Source: a virus
Virus record (IMG/VR): IMGVR_UViG_3300013099_000061
Location: 1-30,215 of that record
Direction: 5' to 3' (one strand)
DNA length: 30,215 nt
This document shows positions 7,454-27,218 of this stretch, piece after piece (within the stretch, counting starts at the first letter, position 1; every line of letters begins with the position of its first letter). Made by a program: the position numbers and the translations under genes. The notes under the pieces are model-generated. The model did not search any database. It had not been told where the DNA came from and saw only the letters and a program-made list of their open reading frames with translations.

Positions 7454-9328
7454 TTATTCCATACCCTCTGTTAAAACATCTCTATCTTTACCAATTTGAG
7501 TATCAATTTGTGGATTATTTGTGCTGCTACCCACACTTGTAACCCTAAATTCAGAACAAGCATATTCACCTACATTATCAACACTATTAATATAACAATA
7601 AATATATCCATATTCCATACTGAAACTACCTGTTGAAATATCTTCATCTCCACTATTAACACCTGCATTAAATAATTCAAAAAGACTATTATCTGGTGAT
7701 TTTCTATATATTCTAAAATACGTTTCATTATTATCTAAACCACAAACAACTTGACATACTTCAAAATGTGTATTTATATTTTGTGCTGAACTTGTTAATG
7801 GAGGGGTTAGATTTATATAACCATTAGATGGTACTATTCCCTCATTAGTATTTCTACAAACAGATAAAATAATATCTGGTGTAAAAGATGATATTGAATC
7901 AGTAATTGTATGACCACTTGTTACAGTAGTTATCATAGGGTTAACACCAAATGAACCACCCACATTTTCAATACATAATGACACATCTGCTGTACTTGTT
8001 ACTGGACTTTCTTCACTATAAAGTAACACTGTAACATCATAACAAACACTGTCACCACCACATACAACCAATGTTGGTGTTTGTGGTTGAACAGAATCAC
8101 CATCAAACTCATAATATGATAAATATTGTGAACCACCATCAGGTTTACATTTTATTACCGTATAAGAACTAGCGTCATTTTCTCTCATATTTGTACCAAT
8201 TAAATCAATTGTTACACATTGACCATCTGGAATTGGATTGGAAAATGCCATAACCCCAATTGTATTATGTACTGTTGTACTACATCCAGTTACATAATCA
8301 AAACTAACTTCAGTTTGCAACGGAATAATACTTTTAGATACACTAACAGAACAATTAGCAACATCTATTGAAGGATAAGTTGTTCCAAGACCATTAACCG
8401 ATGTTAAACAAAAATTAGCTTCTAAATTTGAACCATATGAAGCATCTTGTACCATTACATTATAACAAACAATATCACCATAACACATGTCAATAGAACC
8501 TGTTCTAGGTGAATTTGGTGTTAAATTTGAAATATATGTGTGATTTTCAAATCCAATTGTGCCATTAGGTTGACAAGTAAAATGTACTGATGCTTCTCCT
8601 TCTCCTATAGCAGTAATATTTGCAACATAATCTATAGAAACTTTTTCATTAATAGTTAATGGATCAGTAATTTCAATACATCCATTTTTATATGAATAAG
8701 TATTTGTTTCATTAGAACTAATTTCATTTAAACCAATTAATTTATTTTGTATGTTAATAGTGGTACTTGGTATTAATAACGGCATTGAAACTAATTTAAC
8801 AAATTTACATATATCATCATTTTCAAAATAATCTCTTATTTCAACATTATAAGTACCATTTTGATCTAAATTAAGAAAACTTGGATTTGTTTTCCACGAA
8901 TAATCATCAGGATTTGCAGAAGAAGGATATACACGATATTGAGCAATTCCATTTACTTTCCCAATATTCACTACCCTAATGCCACTTAAAAATTTATAAA
9001 CCAAAAAATTAGGATTTAATTGACAATAAAAAGTACAATCTTCTTCTTCAACTACTGCACTATTAAATAGAAATTCTTTTTCATATGTATCATCAATTTC
9101 CATTACATCAATATAATCAATAACTCTTTTTTCATATTCCAATACAGAAAGAAATTTTAAATCTTCTGTTGTTATTTCAGGATATGTATGTGATATTGGT
9201 GGTGTTGTATTATATGTAATATTAAACTCATCCAACATATTATATTGGATAGAATTATTATGTTCACTACCGATGCCACAACTCATAACATCGCTTAAAT
9301 TTAAAATATATTTTCTGGCATTTTTCAT
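7454..9328 (-). CDS. Cys-rich repeat virion protein
   Basis: 624 residues with about twenty Cys. Residues 1-100 are an acidic N-terminal region. From about 216 onward there are imperfect repeats of roughly 140 residues: a 'NPIPDGQCVTIDLIG'-type strand, a 'CxPxG' element (about 252 and 394), and a 'CxGDxVCYxVxV' element (282-292 as CYGDIVCYNVMV and 423-433 as CGGDSVCYDVTV), followed by a Cys in 'xFCLTSV' or 'SLCIENV'. A third, weaker copy follows after 490. Paired Cys at fixed spacing suggest disulfides or metal sites in a protein exposed outside the cell. It lies between a glycosyltransferase gene and the large tail-fibre gene. I recognise no family; adhesin or decoration is the likely role. 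Confidence 0.55.
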   Translation of the reverse strand: MKNARKYILNLSDVMSCGIGSEHNNSIQYNMLDEFNITYNTTPPISHTYPEITTEDLKFLSVLEYEKRVIDYIDVMEIDDTYEKEFLFNSAVVEEEDCTFYCQLNPNFLVYKFLSGIRVVNIGKVNGIAQYRVYPSSANPDDYSWKTNPSFLNLDQNGTYNVEIRDYFENDDICKFVKLVSMPLLIPSTTINIQNKLIGLNEISSNETNTYSYKNGCIEITDPLTINEKVSIDYVANITAIGEGEASVHFTCQPNGTIGFENHTYISNLTPNSPRTGSIDMCYGDIVCYNVMVQDASYGSNLEANFCLTSVNGLGTTYPSIDVANCSVSVSKSIIPLQTEVSFDYVTGCSTTVHNTIGVMAFSNPIPDGQCVTIDLIGTNMRENDASSYTVIKCKPDGGSQYLSYYEFDGDSVQPQTPTLVVCGGDSVCYDVTVLLYSEESPVTSTADVSLCIENVGGSFGVNPMITTVTSGHTITDSISSFTPDIILSVCRNTNEGIVPSNGYINLTPPLTSSAQNINTHFEVCQVVCGLDNNETYFRIYRKSPDNSLFELFNAGVNSGDEDISTGSFSMEYGYIYCYINSVDNVGEYACSEFRVTSVGSSTNNPQIDTQIGKDRDVLTEGME

Positions 9329-9330
9329 AA

Positions 9331-10245
9331 TTAAAATAATATATTTTCGAAATTCTTTTCAGTATTTTTTATTTCTTTAATATAATTAAAAGAACAGTAT
9401 TTTTTATCTGCTTTAAGTTTCTTATTAAATGGTGATATTTGATGTTCTGTTTTCACAAAAAATGTTTTATCTCCACTTACAGCACCTGCATTATGATAAA
9501 TAGAATTATCATTCCATTTTTTTGTTAAATCGGTTGCCCAAGAAAAATTTATTCTTTTAGATAATTTTGTTTCATGTCCAAATAACCACGCATTCCACAA
9601 AACTGCCCACATATCAGAAGTCCAAGATTGAATAGGATGTTTTGGATTATATTTATTAGATGTTTCCACCATATGTTTAAATAAATTCTCTGAATCTTTT
9701 TCAACTTTTTCCCAATATTCCTTTGTTAAATTTTTCATTAAATATTGTGCACCCCCTGCATTATTATCATTTTTTTCTACAATTTCTGGTTTAATTCCAA
9801 CTATATTACACATTTCAAGAAAAAGTTTATCGCTTTTGCCTTTAATATACTTACTGTCAATATAAGAACGTGTATCACTTAAATACCAAATATCATTTTT
9901 TTCTAAATCATTAATCTTCATTTTTTTTGTAAATATGACATCAGGATCAATATAAAAAAAAGTTTCTTTCTCCATTTCAGGATTACTATCAAATAGTTTA
10001 GCTAAAATATGTGGACGTAAAGAAGAAGAATATTGGGGATTTTTTCTAGTATCATTAATTATATGAAATTCTGATTTTATATCACCATCCATTATATTCA
10101 TCAACGTATTACTTATCTGATGTTTATTTTTTCCTATAACATATATCGTGTCTTTTTCATATCCCCATTTTCTAAAGTTATTAATTTGGACAAGCATTTG
10201 CCATAAAAAATAATTCGAATCTGGTAAGGCGACTAAAAATTTCAT
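9331..10245 (-). CDS. GT-A-type glycosyltransferase, hydroxyproline-arabinosyltransferase-like
   Basis: 304 residues. The N-terminus FLVALPDSNYFLWQMLVQ and the metal-binding DPD motif (D100-P-D102 in FFYIDPDVIF) are those of a nucleotide-sugar-dependent GT-A enzyme. Further conserved-looking elements are NNAGGAQYLMKNL (161-173), SWTSDMWAVLWN (207-218) and YHNAGA (250-255). The arrangement is reminiscent of the plant hydroxyproline O-arabinosyltransferase group and related phage proteins; I give this as resemblance only. It lies within the tail operon, between the 1229-residue tail protein and the Cys-rich virion protein, with 1-3 base gaps, so its acceptor may be a phage tail protein rather than DNA. 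It could instead modify the host surface. Confidence 0.65.
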   Translation of the reverse strand: MKFLVALPDSNYFLWQMLVQINNFRKWGYEKDTIYVIGKNKHQISNTLMNIMDGDIKSEFHIINDTRKNPQYSSSLRPHILAKLFDSNPEMEKETFFYIDPDVIFTKKMKINDLEKNDIWYLSDTRSYIDSKYIKGKSDKLFLEMCNIVGIKPEIVEKNDNNAGGAQYLMKNLTKEYWEKVEKDSENLFKHMVETSNKYNPKHPIQSWTSDMWAVLWNAWLFGHETKLSKRINFSWATDLTKKWNDNSIYHNAGAVSGDKTFFVKTEHQISPFNKKLKADKKYCSFNYIKEIKNTEKNFENILF

Positions 10246-21971: not shown

Positions 21972-22784
21972 TTATTTAAATCCCTGTAATAATTTATCTC
22001 CATATTTAATTCCATCATAACCACTTTTTCTGGCTTTTTCTGAAACTGCTTTATTTTTTAAATCCATTATATCAATTCCTTGCTTCTTACTCAAATCATC
22101 GAAATTAATATGAGGAAACCATACCGAACATAATACTTCGATTGGTGTTTTCTTTTCACTATAATTAATATCTAAATCATCAGTATTTAAAAGATTTTCA
22201 AAATCAATTTCATACTCCTCAAACCCCTCTGATGGTTTTAATATAAAAAAATTCCCAATTGTTGAATTTTCCATTATAGCACCCTTTCTATATGCTTTAA
22301 TTGTTTGTGGATTTTTAGATGTTTCATTAGTATCTTCTAAAGATTCTAAAAATTCAGCATATGATACATCACCGTCACTATCGTTATTAGCATTAATGAT
22401 GTTTTGAGTAACTACTTCTTCCATTCCTTGTTGTTCATCATAATCATAAATGTCTTGTATTTTATTCAATAATCTACAAGCATCTTTGTTTGACATACCA
22501 ATTTTCACTATTCTTATTGATGAATCATCAACTAATGCTTTAACGAATCGATGATGACCATCAAGAACATTATTATCAGTATCAACCCATATTGGATTTT
22601 TATTGTCGCTTTTAACTTTATTCACTACATCAGATAAAACCACACCTTGAGATGCATTTAACGTATTTGGATCGACATCCATTATCTCATAATTAACACC
22701 CTCATCATCTAATTTATCTATCACAATATTATACGGTGCATTAACTTGTGGTAAATGATATGGTCTAAATCGCATGTCTATCAT
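21972..22784 (-). CDS. ParB/sulfiredoxin-like protein with possible ART-like C-terminus
   Basis: 270 residues. Residues 64-84 (PIWVDTDNNVLDGHHRFVKA, with DGHHR at 75-79) are the ParB/sulfiredoxin-fold nucleotide-binding or nuclease motif. An acidic linker follows (about 110-160). The C-terminal part has KAYRKG at 163-168, a strand NFFIL, and near the end SGYDGIKYG (254-262). A YR...F...GYDGIK order recalls the small ADP-ribosyltransferase-like domains of phage polyvalent proteins, but the catalytic Glu is not obvious, so this half is a hypothesis. It is preceded 14 bases upstream by a promoter-like element and lies next to the HAD, nuclease and nucleotidyltransferase genes. Confidence 0.55.
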   Translation of the reverse strand: MIDMRFRPYHLPQVNAPYNIVIDKLDDEGVNYEIMDVDPNTLNASQGVVLSDVVNKVKSDNKNPIWVDTDNNVLDGHHRFVKALVDDSSIRIVKIGMSNKDACRLLNKIQDIYDYDEQQGMEEVVTQNIINANNDSDGDVSYAEFLESLEDTNETSKNPQTIKAYRKGAIMENSTIGNFFILKPSEGFEEYEIDFENLLNTDDLDINYSEKKTPIEVLCSVWFPHINFDDLSKKQGIDIMDLKNKAVSEKARKSGYDGIKYGDKLLQGFK

Positions 22785-22810: not shown

Positions 22811-23380
22811 TTATTTGAAAAACTTAATAATCTCTTCTTTAATAATCTTTACTATTTTTTTCTTATTATTGAAATTAGCTAATGTAATATTATCATTATC
22901 CACTAAATAAATATTAAAGGATATATTTGAGGGCATTTTATCAATAACGCTTTTAAACGATTCAATCTCCTTTGGTCTATCATCATAAACATTAATCTCT
23001 TCTAAATCTGGAAACGTATCGAGATATTCTAATATTCTCTCACCCTTATCTTTGTTATTTTTTTTCATATCAAGAAAATCCACCCCAACATTATTTAAAT
23101 CTAAAATGTTTTGAACTTCAGGTCTTAATTTTTCTAAGCGATTTGTTAAAATAATAGCATAAGATTCTTCATTAAAAACACCCTTTTTTATAACATCAAC
23201 CAAAGTGTCATATAGGTCAATATCAAAAACATCAGTATCTAAACTTTCAGTTTTGCTCCACCATCCAATATGGGGATATTTTTCACCAGTTACATCTTCC
23301 CATATTTTTTTACCTTCTTCGGGTTCAGGTGAATTACAAAGTGTACCATCAAAATCTACAGCATAGAGTGTTTTTATCAT
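22811..23380 (-). CDS. HAD phosphatase, 'Swiss Army Knife RNA repair'-like (HAD_SAK type)
   Basis: 189 residues. All four HAD motifs are visible: DFDGTL with D9 and D11 (nucleophile and acid/base), LTNR at 78-81, a Lys at about 106 in LDMKK, and VYDDR with D133/D134. HIGWWSKTESLD (37-48) between motifs I and II matches the GWW-SL cap element characteristic of the HAD_SAK family, which is linked in name and domain context to RNA repair. A phosphatase or phosphotransferase acting on nucleic-acid ends is the likely role. Its start overlaps the stop of the nuclease-like gene by one base (TAATG), implying coupled translation. The HAD fold is secure; the RNA substrate is inferred. Confidence 0.75.
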   Translation of the reverse strand: MIKTLYAVDFDGTLCNSPEPEEGKKIWEDVTGEKYPHIGWWSKTESLDTDVFDIDLYDTLVDVIKKGVFNEESYAIILTNRLEKLRPEVQNILDLNNVGVDFLDMKKNNKDKGERILEYLDTFPDLEEINVYDDRPKEIESFKSVIDKMPSNISFNIYLVDNDNITLANFNNKKKIVKIIKEEIIKFFK

Positions 23381-23895
23381 TATTTGTGTATCGTTTTGAT
23401 TATAAATTCATCAATATCTTTAATTGGGGTTAATATTACAATATCTTTACGACCACTCCTCATATATCTCTTATATTTCATTTCGGAAATATTTTCAGGT
23501 TTAACAAATATTAACTCGTTTTTATTTTCAATCTTGATTTCCATTAGTTCTCTCAATTTATGGACATCCACAAAATCAAACCTATCTTCTCTTTCAAAAA
23601 CAATAGCATTTAATTTAGATCCATACAACCAACCAATATCCCCATTTACATTTTGTAATTCAATCCATGTAAAACCATCTTCATTTACTTTTTTCTGTCC
23701 TTTTACATCAACATATGTAGCTTTCCCATTTTTTATTAGTTGTACATCCCAATGTTCCTCAATATCTTGTTTTTTAGTTGATTTTTGACAAAAATAATTC
23801 TCTTTCTCTGCCAACTCAATAAAATTATTTTCTACTTCAACACCTTTTTTATGCATTTCATTTTGCATTTCGTTTAATTTTTTCATACTATTCAT
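23380..23895 (-). CDS. PD-(D/E)XK nuclease-like protein
   Basis: 171 residues. After a helical N-terminus (about 5-35) comes EEHWDVQLIKNGKATYVDVKG: D50 in HWDV, then D63-x-K65 in YVDVKG, with Q67. This is the D...(D/E)xK core of the restriction-endonuclease-like fold. TWIELQNVNGDIGWLYG (76-92) gives the following strand and loop. Such small proteins are found in phages as nucleases of unknown target. It is packed into the run of RNA-processing-type genes: 27 bases after the 2H gene and overlapping the HAD gene by one base. Both DNA and RNA substrates are possible. Confidence 0.62.
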   Translation of the reverse strand: MNSMKKLNEMQNEMHKKGVEVENNFIELAEKENYFCQKSTKKQDIEEHWDVQLIKNGKATYVDVKGQKKVNEDGFTWIELQNVNGDIGWLYGSKLNAIVFEREDRFDFVDVHKLRELMEIKIENKNELIFVKPENISEMKYKRYMRSGRKDIVILTPIKDIDEFIIKTIHK

Positions 23896-23922
23896 TTTTT
23901 AAATTCAAGTTATTTATGTTAA

Positions 23923-24309
23923 TTATTCTTTAAATTCAACTTCTTCTACTATTCCACTTAAATATATTGGCCTTTTTAATGGTTTCCAATCCGTTAGATT
24001 ATCTGATATAAAAGGTTTACCTCCTGCGCTTCTATTTACTGCTAATGTGATATGTGGTTTTTTCTTATCACTTCCAAATCCACTAACACCCAAAGCAATT
24101 ACTTTATCGTCCATAGCAATATCATTTACTTGTAAACGAACAGATAAACCCAAATATTTTTCATATATTGGATTAATTTCACCTAAATTTATTGTTAGGT
24201 GGTGCACTATTATTTCATAATCATCAGGAATTATCGATTGGAATTTTTTTATTAACTTCTGTCGTGATTGTTCATTTAAAACAACCGCACTATATGAAAC
24301 ATTTCCCAT
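23923..24309 (-). CDS. 2H phosphoesterase-like protein (LigT / tRNA-ligase CPD type)
   Basis: 128 residues. It has two His-x-Thr motifs: H37-L-T39 in VHHLTINLG and H86-I-T88 in KPHITLAVN, 49 residues apart. This is the two-fold active site of the 2H superfamily, which hydrolyses or forms 2',3'-cyclic phosphates and related RNA ends. The placement resembles the cyclic phosphodiesterase domain of tRNA ligases. Its ATG directly follows the stop of the kinase-nucleotidyltransferase gene (TAAATG), so the two are likely translated together. That neighbour, and the HAD gene downstream, point to RNA end processing. The catalytic motif is clear; the substrate is inferred. Confidence 0.72.
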   Translation of the reverse strand: MGNVSYSAVVLNEQSRQKLIKKFQSIIPDDYEIIVHHLTINLGEINPIYEKYLGLSVRLQVNDIAMDDKVIALGVSGFGSDKKKPHITLAVNRSAGGKPFISDNLTDWKPLKRPIYLSGIVEEVEFKE

Positions 24310-26544
24310 TTATATTTTTTTTATATCTTCTTTAGATAAGGTGTCCAATATCTCCTTATTTAATTCTTCATCTTTTGAATAATCTTCATAATTGTTTTGA
24401 AGGAATTCAAATACGGATACCTCTGTAGGTTTTGAATAACCACCCTCACCATTCCATTCATTATATTTATTCACATAAAAATCAACATCACGTTTATTTT
24501 CATTAAGGGGAGTAGTATTGTTATTTACATATCCCAATAAATCTTCACGATTATTAGGCACTTCATCATTATATGTTTTCAATAATAGAGACTTTAATGT
24601 ATCACCAATTTCTTTACCTTTATAACCTAGATTCATTAAATCGTTACCGTTAATAGCCAATTCTTTAATATTTTTTGGATATTTTCCACTTTGTAAATCA
24701 TTAATACTTAATTTAATATTATCTGGAAGTATTTCACTTTGAAAAACTTTTGGTGATGTAGTATAAATATTATGTGCTATTGATCTATTACTTAACGGAT
24801 TATTATTTAATTTATCATTAAACGCAAACTCCAATGCCTTAATTTCTTTATACGTATCAATATCACCTTTTAAATTATCCTTATAATATTGAGACGGTGA
24901 ATCTAAAACATGATGAGTTAATAACATAATGAACTCTCCCATTGTTTTGACATTATCCCATTCATCTCCAACATATAGTGACGCATCTTGTCCAAAAACA
25001 TGTTTAAGTAATCCAGTATTTTTTAAACTAAATGCCCCAACATAAGAATCACCCTTTTCAACAATTTTATTTAATTCAATTAAAATTCTTTCAGGGGAAA
25101 TTTCTTTAATTTTAGGTGCATTGTCTCTAATCAATTTTAAAGTTTCAGGTTCAATAGTAAATCCAAACCTAGAAGAAAATTGAACAGCCCTAAGCATTCT
25201 TAATGGATCTTCACCAAATGCTTTGGGGTTAACAACACGTATGATTTTATTTTTTAAATCTTCCTGTCCTCCATATGGGTCAATAATATTACCGTTAATA
25301 TCTTTTGCAATTGCATTTATTGTGAAATCTCTACGAAATAAATCAGCTTCAATAGGCATTTCATGATCCGATGTTATTTCAAAATCTTTATGCCCACCTT
25401 CACCTGTTGCTTGTTCTTTTCTGGGAATAGCAACATCAATTTCTTCAGTTGCCCCTTCAGGTTTAAATTTTATAACACCAAATGATTTCCCAACCAAATC
25501 CACTTTACCGTACTTAGATAAAATATTTTCCAAATCATCCATTGGGATTCCTGTGATTAAAATATCTAGATCTTTTGATTCTTTTCCAATAAATTCATCA
25601 CGTACAGCACCACCCACTGAAAATATCTTGCCACCTAAATTTTCAATTTCTTCTTTAAACGGTAAATCTTGCAATGACATGATATCCGCTTCATTAAGTG
25701 ATTTAAATGTTAAATTATTAATATCTCCTTGATTACATGCAACAGAAGTGTTACCAAGACCAGCTAATCTACATTTTTTCTTTACCTCAACAGCTTTTGC
25801 TCCATCAACCCATGCTTTTCTTCTTTCAGATAATCTATAAACATCATTAGTGGCATTACCCACAACATGATTATATTCTAAATCTTCATCAATTTCAACT
25901 TCTTGTGGTTTTTCTGTAGGAATAGAATATAAATCACCAAAACCAACATCATAAAAACCTAAATCACCATTTTTTTTATAACCTAAATTATTATAATTTA
26001 AGTAATCCATACTTTGAATACCATTTTTTAAAGCTTCTTCACCAATATGTAATATATCATAAAAAAACTTCTCATCTTCTGGATTTTTCGATAAATAATT
26101 TTCAATTGATTCTTCATCAACACCAATATTATATCCATAAATATAATGATCAATGACATCAGGAAATTCTACACCAAATATTTCTTTAAAAACATAATTA
26201 ATTCTAATCATTTGTCTACCTATTTTTCCATGATCAGTTTTTAATTTCTCTAAAATAATCGTGTAAGTTTCTGGTATATCAGTGGTTTTTGATGTTATGG
26301 ATTGAACACTATAAGGTTCAGCAATATAATTTAAATCTTTACCTATTAATTTTAAATTTTCTATTGCTTCACTTTTATCTGAAGTTACTTTTAAAACTCT
26401 ATCATTTCCAATATCATATGCAACACCAAAATCACCAGCACCTATATATTGAGGAGAATTTAAATTATGTTTTTCTGCAACACCATTTGCTACTCTATCA
26501 GCTATTTCCCTATCATAAACCTCATTTAGATTAATATTGGACAT
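24310..26544 (-). CDS. Fusion: protein-kinase-like domain plus CCA-adding/poly(A)-polymerase-like nucleotidyltransferase
   Basis: 744 residues. N-terminal domain (about 28-205): glycine loop GAGDFGVAY (35-43), Lys52 in VLKVT, a catalytic-loop-like D180 with N185 in MDYLNYNN, and a DFG-like D199 in FYDVGFGD. These are the core residues of a protein-kinase-like fold, with no HRD. A Cys/Gly-rich link (about 253-278, KKKCRLAGLGNTSVACNQG) follows. The C-terminal domain (about 300-520) has class II nucleotidyltransferase motifs: SVGGAVRDEF (309-318), D325-x-D327, IDVAIPR, RRDFTINA (404-411), DPYGGQEDL and EDPLRMLRAVQFSSRFG. Class II enzymes of this kind add CCA or A to RNA 3' ends; E. coli Cca is about 412 residues. 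The fusion is unusual. What the kinase domain phosphorylates is not known. Confidence 0.8.
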   Translation of the reverse strand: MSNINLNEVYDREIADRVANGVAEKHNLNSPQYIGAGDFGVAYDIGNDRVLKVTSDKSEAIENLKLIGKDLNYIAEPYSVQSITSKTTDIPETYTIILEKLKTDHGKIGRQMIRINYVFKEIFGVEFPDVIDHYIYGYNIGVDEESIENYLSKNPEDEKFFYDILHIGEEALKNGIQSMDYLNYNNLGYKKNGDLGFYDVGFGDLYSIPTEKPQEVEIDEDLEYNHVVGNATNDVYRLSERRKAWVDGAKAVEVKKKCRLAGLGNTSVACNQGDINNLTFKSLNEADIMSLQDLPFKEEIENLGGKIFSVGGAVRDEFIGKESKDLDILITGIPMDDLENILSKYGKVDLVGKSFGVIKFKPEGATEEIDVAIPRKEQATGEGGHKDFEITSDHEMPIEADLFRRDFTINAIAKDINGNIIDPYGGQEDLKNKIIRVVNPKAFGEDPLRMLRAVQFSSRFGFTIEPETLKLIRDNAPKIKEISPERILIELNKIVEKGDSYVGAFSLKNTGLLKHVFGQDASLYVGDEWDNVKTMGEFIMLLTHHVLDSPSQYYKDNLKGDIDTYKEIKALEFAFNDKLNNNPLSNRSIAHNIYTTSPKVFQSEILPDNIKLSINDLQSGKYPKNIKELAINGNDLMNLGYKGKEIGDTLKSLLLKTYNDEVPNNREDLLGYVNNNTTPLNENKRDVDFYVNKYNEWNGEGGYSKPTEVSVFEFLQNNYEDYSKDEELNKEILDTLSKEDIKKI

Positions 26545-26567: not shown

Positions 26568-27218
26568 TTATGATTCTTTTTTCTTTTTAGATTGTAATCC
26601 TCTTATGGTATCAATTACCATTTTTTTAATCATATCTTTATTTTCTTGTAATGCTTCTTTAACTTTTTCAACAGTATACATTTCAAGAATTGTACTTTTT
26701 ATAGTTTCTTCAACAATTGAACTGAATTTGTCCGTCATATAACTTCCAACAATATTTTCCACATTTTCTTTTAAAAATCCCTCATTCATCATTGGAGATG
26801 TTTGTTGATTAGAATTTTGCGTTTGGGGATTATTATTAAGATTATTGAGTGATTCAGCTAATGTTTTTTTTCTGCTATTCTCTATATCCTTATATAATTG
26901 CTCTTCTCTATTTTCTTGTTCTAAATTATTGTTATTATTTTGTACGTGTTGTTGTGGGTTACTCTTTCTAGGTATTTTAGTTTCAGATAGGGGGTGACTT
27001 TTCGGTTCTCCCTTTTTTTCCGATATCTTATTTTCTACCATTTTAATTAATTTAGAAGAAGATGTTTCCCTTCCTGTATCTAATGAACTAATAAGTTCAT
27101 TCAAAAAACTGTCTTTTGGAAGAGCATTTGTAGATTCACCTAATTTCACAGAAACATCTTTTTTTTCTGCTTTTATCTTATCAATTCCTTCTTTAATTGT
27201 CTCTAAATCTAATTTCAT
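26568..27218 (-). CDS. Coiled-coil, Asn/Gln-rich protein of unknown role
   Basis: 216 residues. The N-terminus is charged (LETIKEGIDKIKAEKKDVSV). Residues about 88-140 are a low-complexity Asn/Gln stretch, likely disordered. The C-terminal 75 residues are helical with coiled-coil potential (FSSIVEETIKSTILEMYTVE; ALQENKDMIKKMVIDTI). No catalytic motif. It precedes the RNA-processing-type block and has a promoter-like element 23 bases before its start, so it may be the first gene of a unit. A scaffold or virion-associated role is possible. Confidence 0.45.
   Translation of the reverse strand: MKLDLETIKEGIDKIKAEKKDVSVKLGESTNALPKDSFLNELISSLDTGRETSSSKLIKMVENKISEKKGEPKSHPLSETKIPRKSNPQQHVQNNNNNLEQENREEQLYKDIENSRKKTLAESLNNLNNNPQTQNSNQQTSPMMNEGFLKENVENIVGSYMTDKFSSIVEETIKSTILEMYTVEKVKEALQENKDMIKKMVIDTIRGLQSKKKKES

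Follow-up and report, generated by a model that had tools for sequence, protein, structure and literature searches.

The four-gene cluster at positions 22,811 to 26,544 of the IMG/VR virus record IMGVR_UViG_3300013099_000061 probably belongs, on balance, to a counter-defence toolkit of T4-like jumbo phages, of which it would be the part that acts on RNA ends; the toolkit would be made as a polyprotein that is cleaved within the prohead, then packaged and delivered into the host. The window, that is, the whole 30,215-base record, is a fragment of a larger genome. Within it, open reading frame (ORF) calling places four minus-strand genes in succession (24310-26544, 23923-24309, 23380-23895 and 22811-23380, encoding proteins of 744, 128, 171 and 189 amino acids in that order), with a TAAATG junction at 24307-24312 and a one-base TAATG overlap at 23380, exactly the packing described in an initial annotation made from the letters of the DNA. 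That annotation took all four genes for a joint RNA-end processing island, a view that is supported for the nucleotidyltransferase, the 2H phosphoesterase and the HAD phosphatase, but not for the role given to the kinase-like domain; the nuclease is an optional member, and the annotation missed the late-gene and probable polyprotein setting of the first gene. The cluster and its modules are as follows.

24310..26544, minus strand: polyvalent protein of 744 amino acids, with protein-kinase-like module, CRLGGLGNTS motif, CCA-type nucleotidyltransferase and C-terminal module
26521..26529, minus strand: candidate prohead-protease site LNE-8, before VYDRE
25918..26520, minus strand: kinase-like module, residues 9-209, its protein-kinase fold ending after the DFG-like FDVG, C-lobe missing (alignment, model and Foldseek)
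25690..25824, minus strand: conserved KKKCRLAGLGNTSVACNQGDINNL motif, ending in the candidate site LNE-285 before ADIMSL (25690-25698)
24529..25689, minus strand: CCA-type class II tRNA nucleotidyltransferase (VGGAVRD/DLDI, RRDFTINAIA, EDPLRMLR)
24499..24507, minus strand: candidate prohead-protease site LNE-682, before NKRD, between the nucleotidyltransferase and the C-terminal module
24313..24498, minus strand: C-terminal module (FYVNKYNEWN...), common to relatives
23923..24309, minus strand: 2H phosphoesterase of the CNPase / fungal tRNA-ligase CPD type, HxT motifs at 24193-24201 and 24046-24054
23380..23895, minus strand: candidate PD-(D/E)XK nuclease (EHWDV...YVDVKG), an optional cluster member
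22811..23380, minus strand: HAD_SAK_1 phosphatase (DFDGT, T79, K112, D134)

The 744-residue protein is homologous to parts of mosaic proteins of 1.2-2.4 thousand residues in relatives, which were collected by scanning IMG/VR with the 2H alignment (39 loci) and the kinase alignment (24 loci). By gain and loss of modules these polyvalent proteins span 744 to 2370 residues, combining one to three kinase-like modules with GNAT, ART-PolyVal and ParB-like domains, unknowns, the nucleotidyltransferase and an Acb1-like 2H domain, and their ORFs lie in a conserved late-gene block that leads into the baseplate wedge genes. The T4 prohead protease gp21 cleaves after L/I-X-E (PMC9026906), and it is this pattern that recurs at the joints between modules. 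Across a set of 33 polyvalent ORFs made non-redundant at about 70% identity, [LI]NE was counted at module breakpoints in 75 of 138 cases versus 25.3 +/- 4.5 in circular shifts, and INE was the most enriched tripeptide found de novo at module boundaries. The density of [LIVM]NE is by itself a weak discriminator within one genome; it is the position at breakpoints that separates the motif from controls. In the same ORFs [LI]NK, [LI]ND and non-aliphatic-NE show no breakpoint enrichment, while [LI]DE is enriched, as expected of an LxE site, and so is [LI]NN, apparently owing to the GDINNL motif. An independent DNA-pattern scan found [LIV]-x-E after CRLGGLGNTSxACNQGDINNL in 32/32 distinct sequences; nine different middle residues occur at this seam and the following sequence varies, yet the glutamate is invariant and the P3 position holds L or I in 26/32 and V in 6/32. 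Likewise, [LIV]xE precedes the nucleotidyltransferase in 12/13 cases, the Acb1-like 2H domain in 8/8 and the fused 2H domain in 9/9, and [LIVM]xE precedes the kinase modules in 16 of 17 distinct relatives, where 23-38% would be expected per search window. The orthologues G002:C1:19735-22686 (983 residues) and G004:C1:52567-55737 (1056 residues) are among the proteins most enriched for [LIVM]NE in their genomes (12 versus 1.9 expected in the latter), which makes them candidates for head-internal proteins that are cut many times. The longer form of the seam motif, KKKCRLGGLGNTSxACNQGDINNL, is strongly conserved and usually occurs once per polyvalent protein; it might serve as a tag that targets the protein to the head or recruits the protease.

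Ten of the 14 large relatives encode a prohead protease of the S77 family, which is thus present in the phage group, though not in the 30-kb fragment of the window record. In 11/11 major capsid proteins of the group, INE followed by S or A is invariant near residue 60, a candidate maturation site whose position matches the 65-residue propeptide of T4 gp23 (PMC5694885). Given this capsid site and the group's own S77 protease, the joints carry the motif that the phage's own capsid protease would be expected to cut. In G002 an [LIVM]xE-rich ORF without a PHROG match adjoins the protease gene at the position of a gp22-like scaffold. The prohead protease ORFs of four relatives are about 600-650 residues long with the S77 match in two halves (G006:C1:214260-215930, G009:C1:63143-64738, G011:C1:302742-304442 and G014:C1:29167-30717), which suggests that they hold an insert, perhaps an intein. 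The 1100-residue portal ORF of G002 (G002:C1:164201-167503; L021:12204-15503, minus strand) is interrupted by an insert that resembles an intein and matches an HNH endonuclease.

We propose that the toolkit is made late, among the virion genes, as a polyvalent polyprotein, and that a gp21-like prohead protease would cut it after [L/I/V]-x-E at the joints, in the window protein at LNE-8, LNE-285 and LNE-682. The pieces, here the kinase-like module, the nucleotidyltransferase and the C-terminal piece, would remain inside the head and be injected together with the DNA, accompanied in relatives by GNAT, ADP-ribosyltransferase, Acb1-like 2H and ParB-like pieces. Once inside, the 2H enzyme would open 2',3'-cyclic phosphates, the HAD phosphatase would remove the remaining phosphate and the nucleotidyltransferase would rebuild the tRNA CCA end, such that 3'-end damage could be mended without a ligase, while internal breaks would be passed to an Rnl1- or Rnl2-type ligase encoded elsewhere. 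Cleavage, packaging, injection and the RNA substrate are all deduced from sequence, and the window's 2H and HAD proteins, which are separate from the polyprotein, may or may not be packaged with it. A stronger version, in which polyvalent proteins are true viral polyproteins and the injected enzymes include a ligase-free tRNA 3'-end kit acting before phage gene expression, is less likely than not.

The enzymatic part of this proposal is carried by three proteins. Pfam recognizes the PolyA_pol head (6e-23), PolyA_pol_RNAbd (7e-16) and tRNA_NucTran2_2 (3e-6) in the 744-residue protein, and the nucleotidyltransferase part aligns to 1miv, the CCA-adding enzyme of Geobacillus (E 2.6e-31), with all class II motifs (GG...RD/DxD, RRDFT and EDxxR) kept. 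Specificity for CCA rather than for A or C addition is likely; it is not settled, because the domain scores below the NCBIfam equivalog cut-offs (PRK13299, 166.5 bits versus 290). The 128-residue protein has the two HxT motifs (H37/T39 and H86/T88), invariant across nine homologues, and a predicted 2H fold, the two features that define the 2H family; its tRNA_lig_CPD match is weak (0.014, below the Pfam cut-off), and its predicted structure (pLDDT 79) gives Foldseek E-values of only about 2e-3. The nearest structure is CNPase (Z 10.0, root-mean-square deviation 4.2, 124 residues aligned), followed by the fungal Trl1 CPD 6u05 (Z 7.9) and Acb1 (Z 7.4). The HAD protein matches HAD_SAK_1 (2e-9, 38 bits versus a Pfam cut-off of 25.6) and conserves the catalytic residues DFDGT, T79, K112 and D134 among homologues; searched as an alignment profile against PDB sequences it gave no meaningful matches. 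Neither of the warning signs named in the initial annotation, loss of active sites or randomly varying neighbours, was seen for these three: all retain the catalytic motifs of their families, and they stay together across relatives, in some as pairwise fusions. Over 31 non-redundant 2H loci, the nucleotidyltransferase is fused to the 2H domain or lies within 5 kb upstream in 26, and the HAD gene is fused or lies within 1.5 kb downstream in 21. The recurrence of 2H with HAD and nucleotidyltransferase in dozens of IMG/VR contigs is not due to chance. Shared synteny alone could reflect inheritance, so the fusions weigh more: nucleotidyltransferase and 2H form a single ORF in 7/31 loci, nucleotidyltransferase and Acb1-like 2H do so in several others, and in L107 the 2H and HAD domains share one 306-residue protein in a different gene setting. 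These fusions support a link between the three activities in a joint RNA-end module. At L102:3998-9378 and L105:1844-9375, the nucleotidyltransferase, GNAT, Acb1-like 2H and CNPase-like 2H domains are separate ORFs lying close to one another, so that these phages bring the modules together in a grouping of their own.

The other two components of the postulated island have a different standing. The N-terminal domain of the 744-residue protein has no Pfam match and is indeed kinase-like by predicted structure (pLDDT above 90 for most of residues 1-190), with Z of about 8-10 against PKR, CDK2 and others over about 120-155 aligned residues and with N-lobe, hinge and catalytic/DFG-like elements present in both alignment and model comparison. 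The fold is, however, that of a protein kinase, and the structure comparison rules out a polynucleotide kinase. With its C-lobe truncated, the domain supplies no 5'-end polynucleotide kinase and is no stand-in for Pnkp. Polyvalent proteins with such C-lobe-less kinases occur mainly in (pro)phages of the Verrucomicrobia-Chlamydia group and of Bacteroidetes (PMC5512222). The kinase alignment profile found no meaningful matches among PDB sequences, and neither the kinase module nor the CRL motif occurs in 50,697 cultured-phage records, so that no isolate is at hand. The 171-residue protein is a nuclease candidate at the level of a motif, having no Pfam match: D...DxK is present in the window and most relatives, with VQVK in L004. 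It directly follows the 2H gene in 10/31 loci; elsewhere the slot is empty or holds a non-homologous D...ExK family. BLAST shows no homology between the two families of this 2H-HAD slot.

Could the three enzymes be part of a complete repair pathway? The initial annotation saw no classical ligase, which is true of the window, in which a scan of the 30,215-base fragment found no tRNA, Rfam RNA or recognized RNA ligase gene, but is an effect of the fragment: looking beyond the window, as that annotation advised, turned up ligases in most large relatives, which makes sealing possible. A T4 Rnl1-type ligase (PF09511) occurs in 7/14 of them, an RNA_ligase-family match (PF09414) above cut-off in 9/14, and one type or both in 11/14; the PF09414 count is the less specific, since control bacteria have matches to this family too. 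In G002, 19 tRNAs are predicted, most clustered near the ligase; Rfam found nothing around the G002 locus, and no RtcB ligase was found in the four relatives searched. The HAD protein of the window, at 189 residues, lacks a kinase part and is therefore not a P-loop kinase-HAD fusion of the T4 Pnkp type. Several phrog_415 matches proved to be the HAD phosphatases themselves (for example, G002:53076-53510), such that this profile does not settle the presence of Pnkp. Toxins that cut the tRNA acceptor end are known (PMC9071432).

Since most large relatives encode a ligase and G002 has its own tRNAs, it is conceivable that the nucleotidyltransferase, 2H and HAD enzymes simply heal tRNAs inside the cell together with an Rnl1 or Rnl2 ligase, T4-style, the LxE joints being uncut linkers. 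CCA enzymes, 2H and SAK-type HAD proteins have been described as RNA repair parts of jumbo phages (PMC7824862), and in the window the 2H and HAD proteins are separate genes. We nevertheless regard this as unlikely, since it does not account for the location among late virion genes, and a plain linker leaves unexplained why P1 glutamate and P3 aliphatic residues are invariant while P2 is free; INE is also the putative capsid maturation site. Rather improbable is a role in counter-signalling, in which the 2H enzymes would destroy cyclic oligonucleotide alarms (CBASS) while HAD and nucleotidyltransferase would target nucleotide signals or modify tRNAs of the host. Such a role has been suggested for polyvalent 2H domains (PMC5512222), the second 2H domain of L005, L006, L007 and L009 matches Acb1 in Pfam, and Acb1 is among the fold matches of the 128-residue protein. 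That protein is, however, structurally closer to CNPase and Trl1 CPD, its type is found fused to HAD_SAK or nucleotidyltransferase, and some relatives encode both 2H types, suggesting different jobs. The seams might also reflect recombination, with [LIV]xE a short shared sequence for swapping modules rather than a protease site. Modules do shuffle among relatives, seams coincide with breakpoints and homing-type endonuclease genes lie in the region, but we find this highly doubtful: at the CRL seam it is a protein pattern that is conserved, nine P2 residues and a free following residue accompanying an invariant glutamate, and INE marks the capsid maturation position as well.

Several considerations weigh against a packaged polyprotein, the reading that we prefer. 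Cleavage and packaging rest wholly on sequence, LxE is a short motif, and most of the 17 [LIVM]xE occurrences in the 744-residue protein fall within folded modules. The sites of homologues are not independent, so that P-values are overstated and the seam counts are descriptive. No obvious targeting peptide or site is present in the 2H and HAD genes of the window, and the protease is not found in every contig, the contigs being fragments. Moreover, polyvalent 2H domains have been proposed to be RNases or degraders of nucleotide signals, not repair enzymes (PMC5512222), and the role of the CCA enzyme may be no more than to maintain the phage's tRNAs.

The packaged-polyprotein reading connects two subjects that have been treated apart, phage polyvalent effectors and prohead-protease maturation, and herein lies its main interest. 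The polyvalent proteins of Iyer et al. 2017 (PMC5512222) resemble those described here in bearing many effector domains per polypeptide, in their virion-gene context and in their GNAT, ART, 2H, ParB-like and MPTase partners, and packaging and injection were proposed there, the processing of some being attributed to the MPTase domain; ours differ in belonging to T4-like jumbo phages, in the CCA-type nucleotidyltransferase and in their prohead-protease-like joints. A literature text search found no paper linking polyvalent proteins to prohead-protease sites: the terms "polyvalent protein" and "prohead protease" co-occur only in PMC5512222, the latter in its reference list. L/I-x-E sites, an S77-family protease, late synthesis and host-directed enzymes are shared with the T4 internal proteins and Alt (PMC9026906, PMC5694885); Alt is cut near both ends, at ITE-6 and LTE-619 (PMC5694885), and T4 substrates yield one mature protein each, whereas here many modules per chain would be released, as far as sequence can tell. 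The RNA repair systems of jumbo phages (PMC7824862) likewise comprise CCA-adding enzymes, 2H and Swiss-army-knife HAD proteins and ATP-grasp RNA ligases per genome, but here the ligase is far away, and nucleotidyltransferase, 2H and HAD lie in the polyvalent locus, either fused or as a cluster. As in the Pnkp-Rnl1 pair of T4, the phage group has a HAD-type phosphatase and an Rnl1-type ligase; unlike there, the cluster is devoid of a polynucleotide kinase domain, its kinase-like domain having the protein-kinase fold. The 128-residue 2H protein shares two HxT motifs and its best structural matches with CNPase and Trl1 CPD, but is much shorter, 12-14% identical and fused to neither ligase nor kinase. 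If the reading is true, the cutting rules of prohead proteases could serve to locate domain borders and to predict packaged and injected enzymes in the many jumbo phages whose proteins of this kind lack annotation. The cluster, with its natural fusions, is also a defined set of genes for testing whether phages mend tRNA 3' ends, their own or those of the host, as soon as infection begins.

Around the cluster, the gene order conserved in relatives runs from NUDIX through two unknowns, the polyvalent protein, 2H, the optional nuclease, HAD, a ParB-like gene, an unknown and a glycosyltransferase to the baseplate genes. Two conserved neighbours flank the cluster in the window.

26568..27218, minus strand: upstream neighbour of 216 amino acids, with MMNE before GFLKE; counterparts in relatives are [LIVM]xE-rich
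21972..22784, minus strand: neighbour with a ParB-like DGHHR stretch, found after HAD in this phage group

Promoter and terminator scans gave no more matches than in shuffles. Downstream of the cluster lie genes with matches to baseplate wedge families, one of which is only about 28-29% identical to genes of cultured phages, namely Flavobacterium phage immuto and Microcystis phage Mel-JY01. A search of 84,980 species genomes with the 2H protein gave a single match, on a contig that is binned with a Bacteroidota genome and has the same cluster, nuclease included; a Bacteroidota host fits these data, which do not prove it. Homing-endonuclease-like ORFs occur at 304-1203 of the window and, in relatives, at L007:10152-10889, L008:4027-4968 and 8971-9714, L009:2370-3251 and L010:8996-9931, several of the latter resembling the one in the window; such inserts split polyvalent ORFs in some phages and lie between the HAD and ParB-like genes in others.

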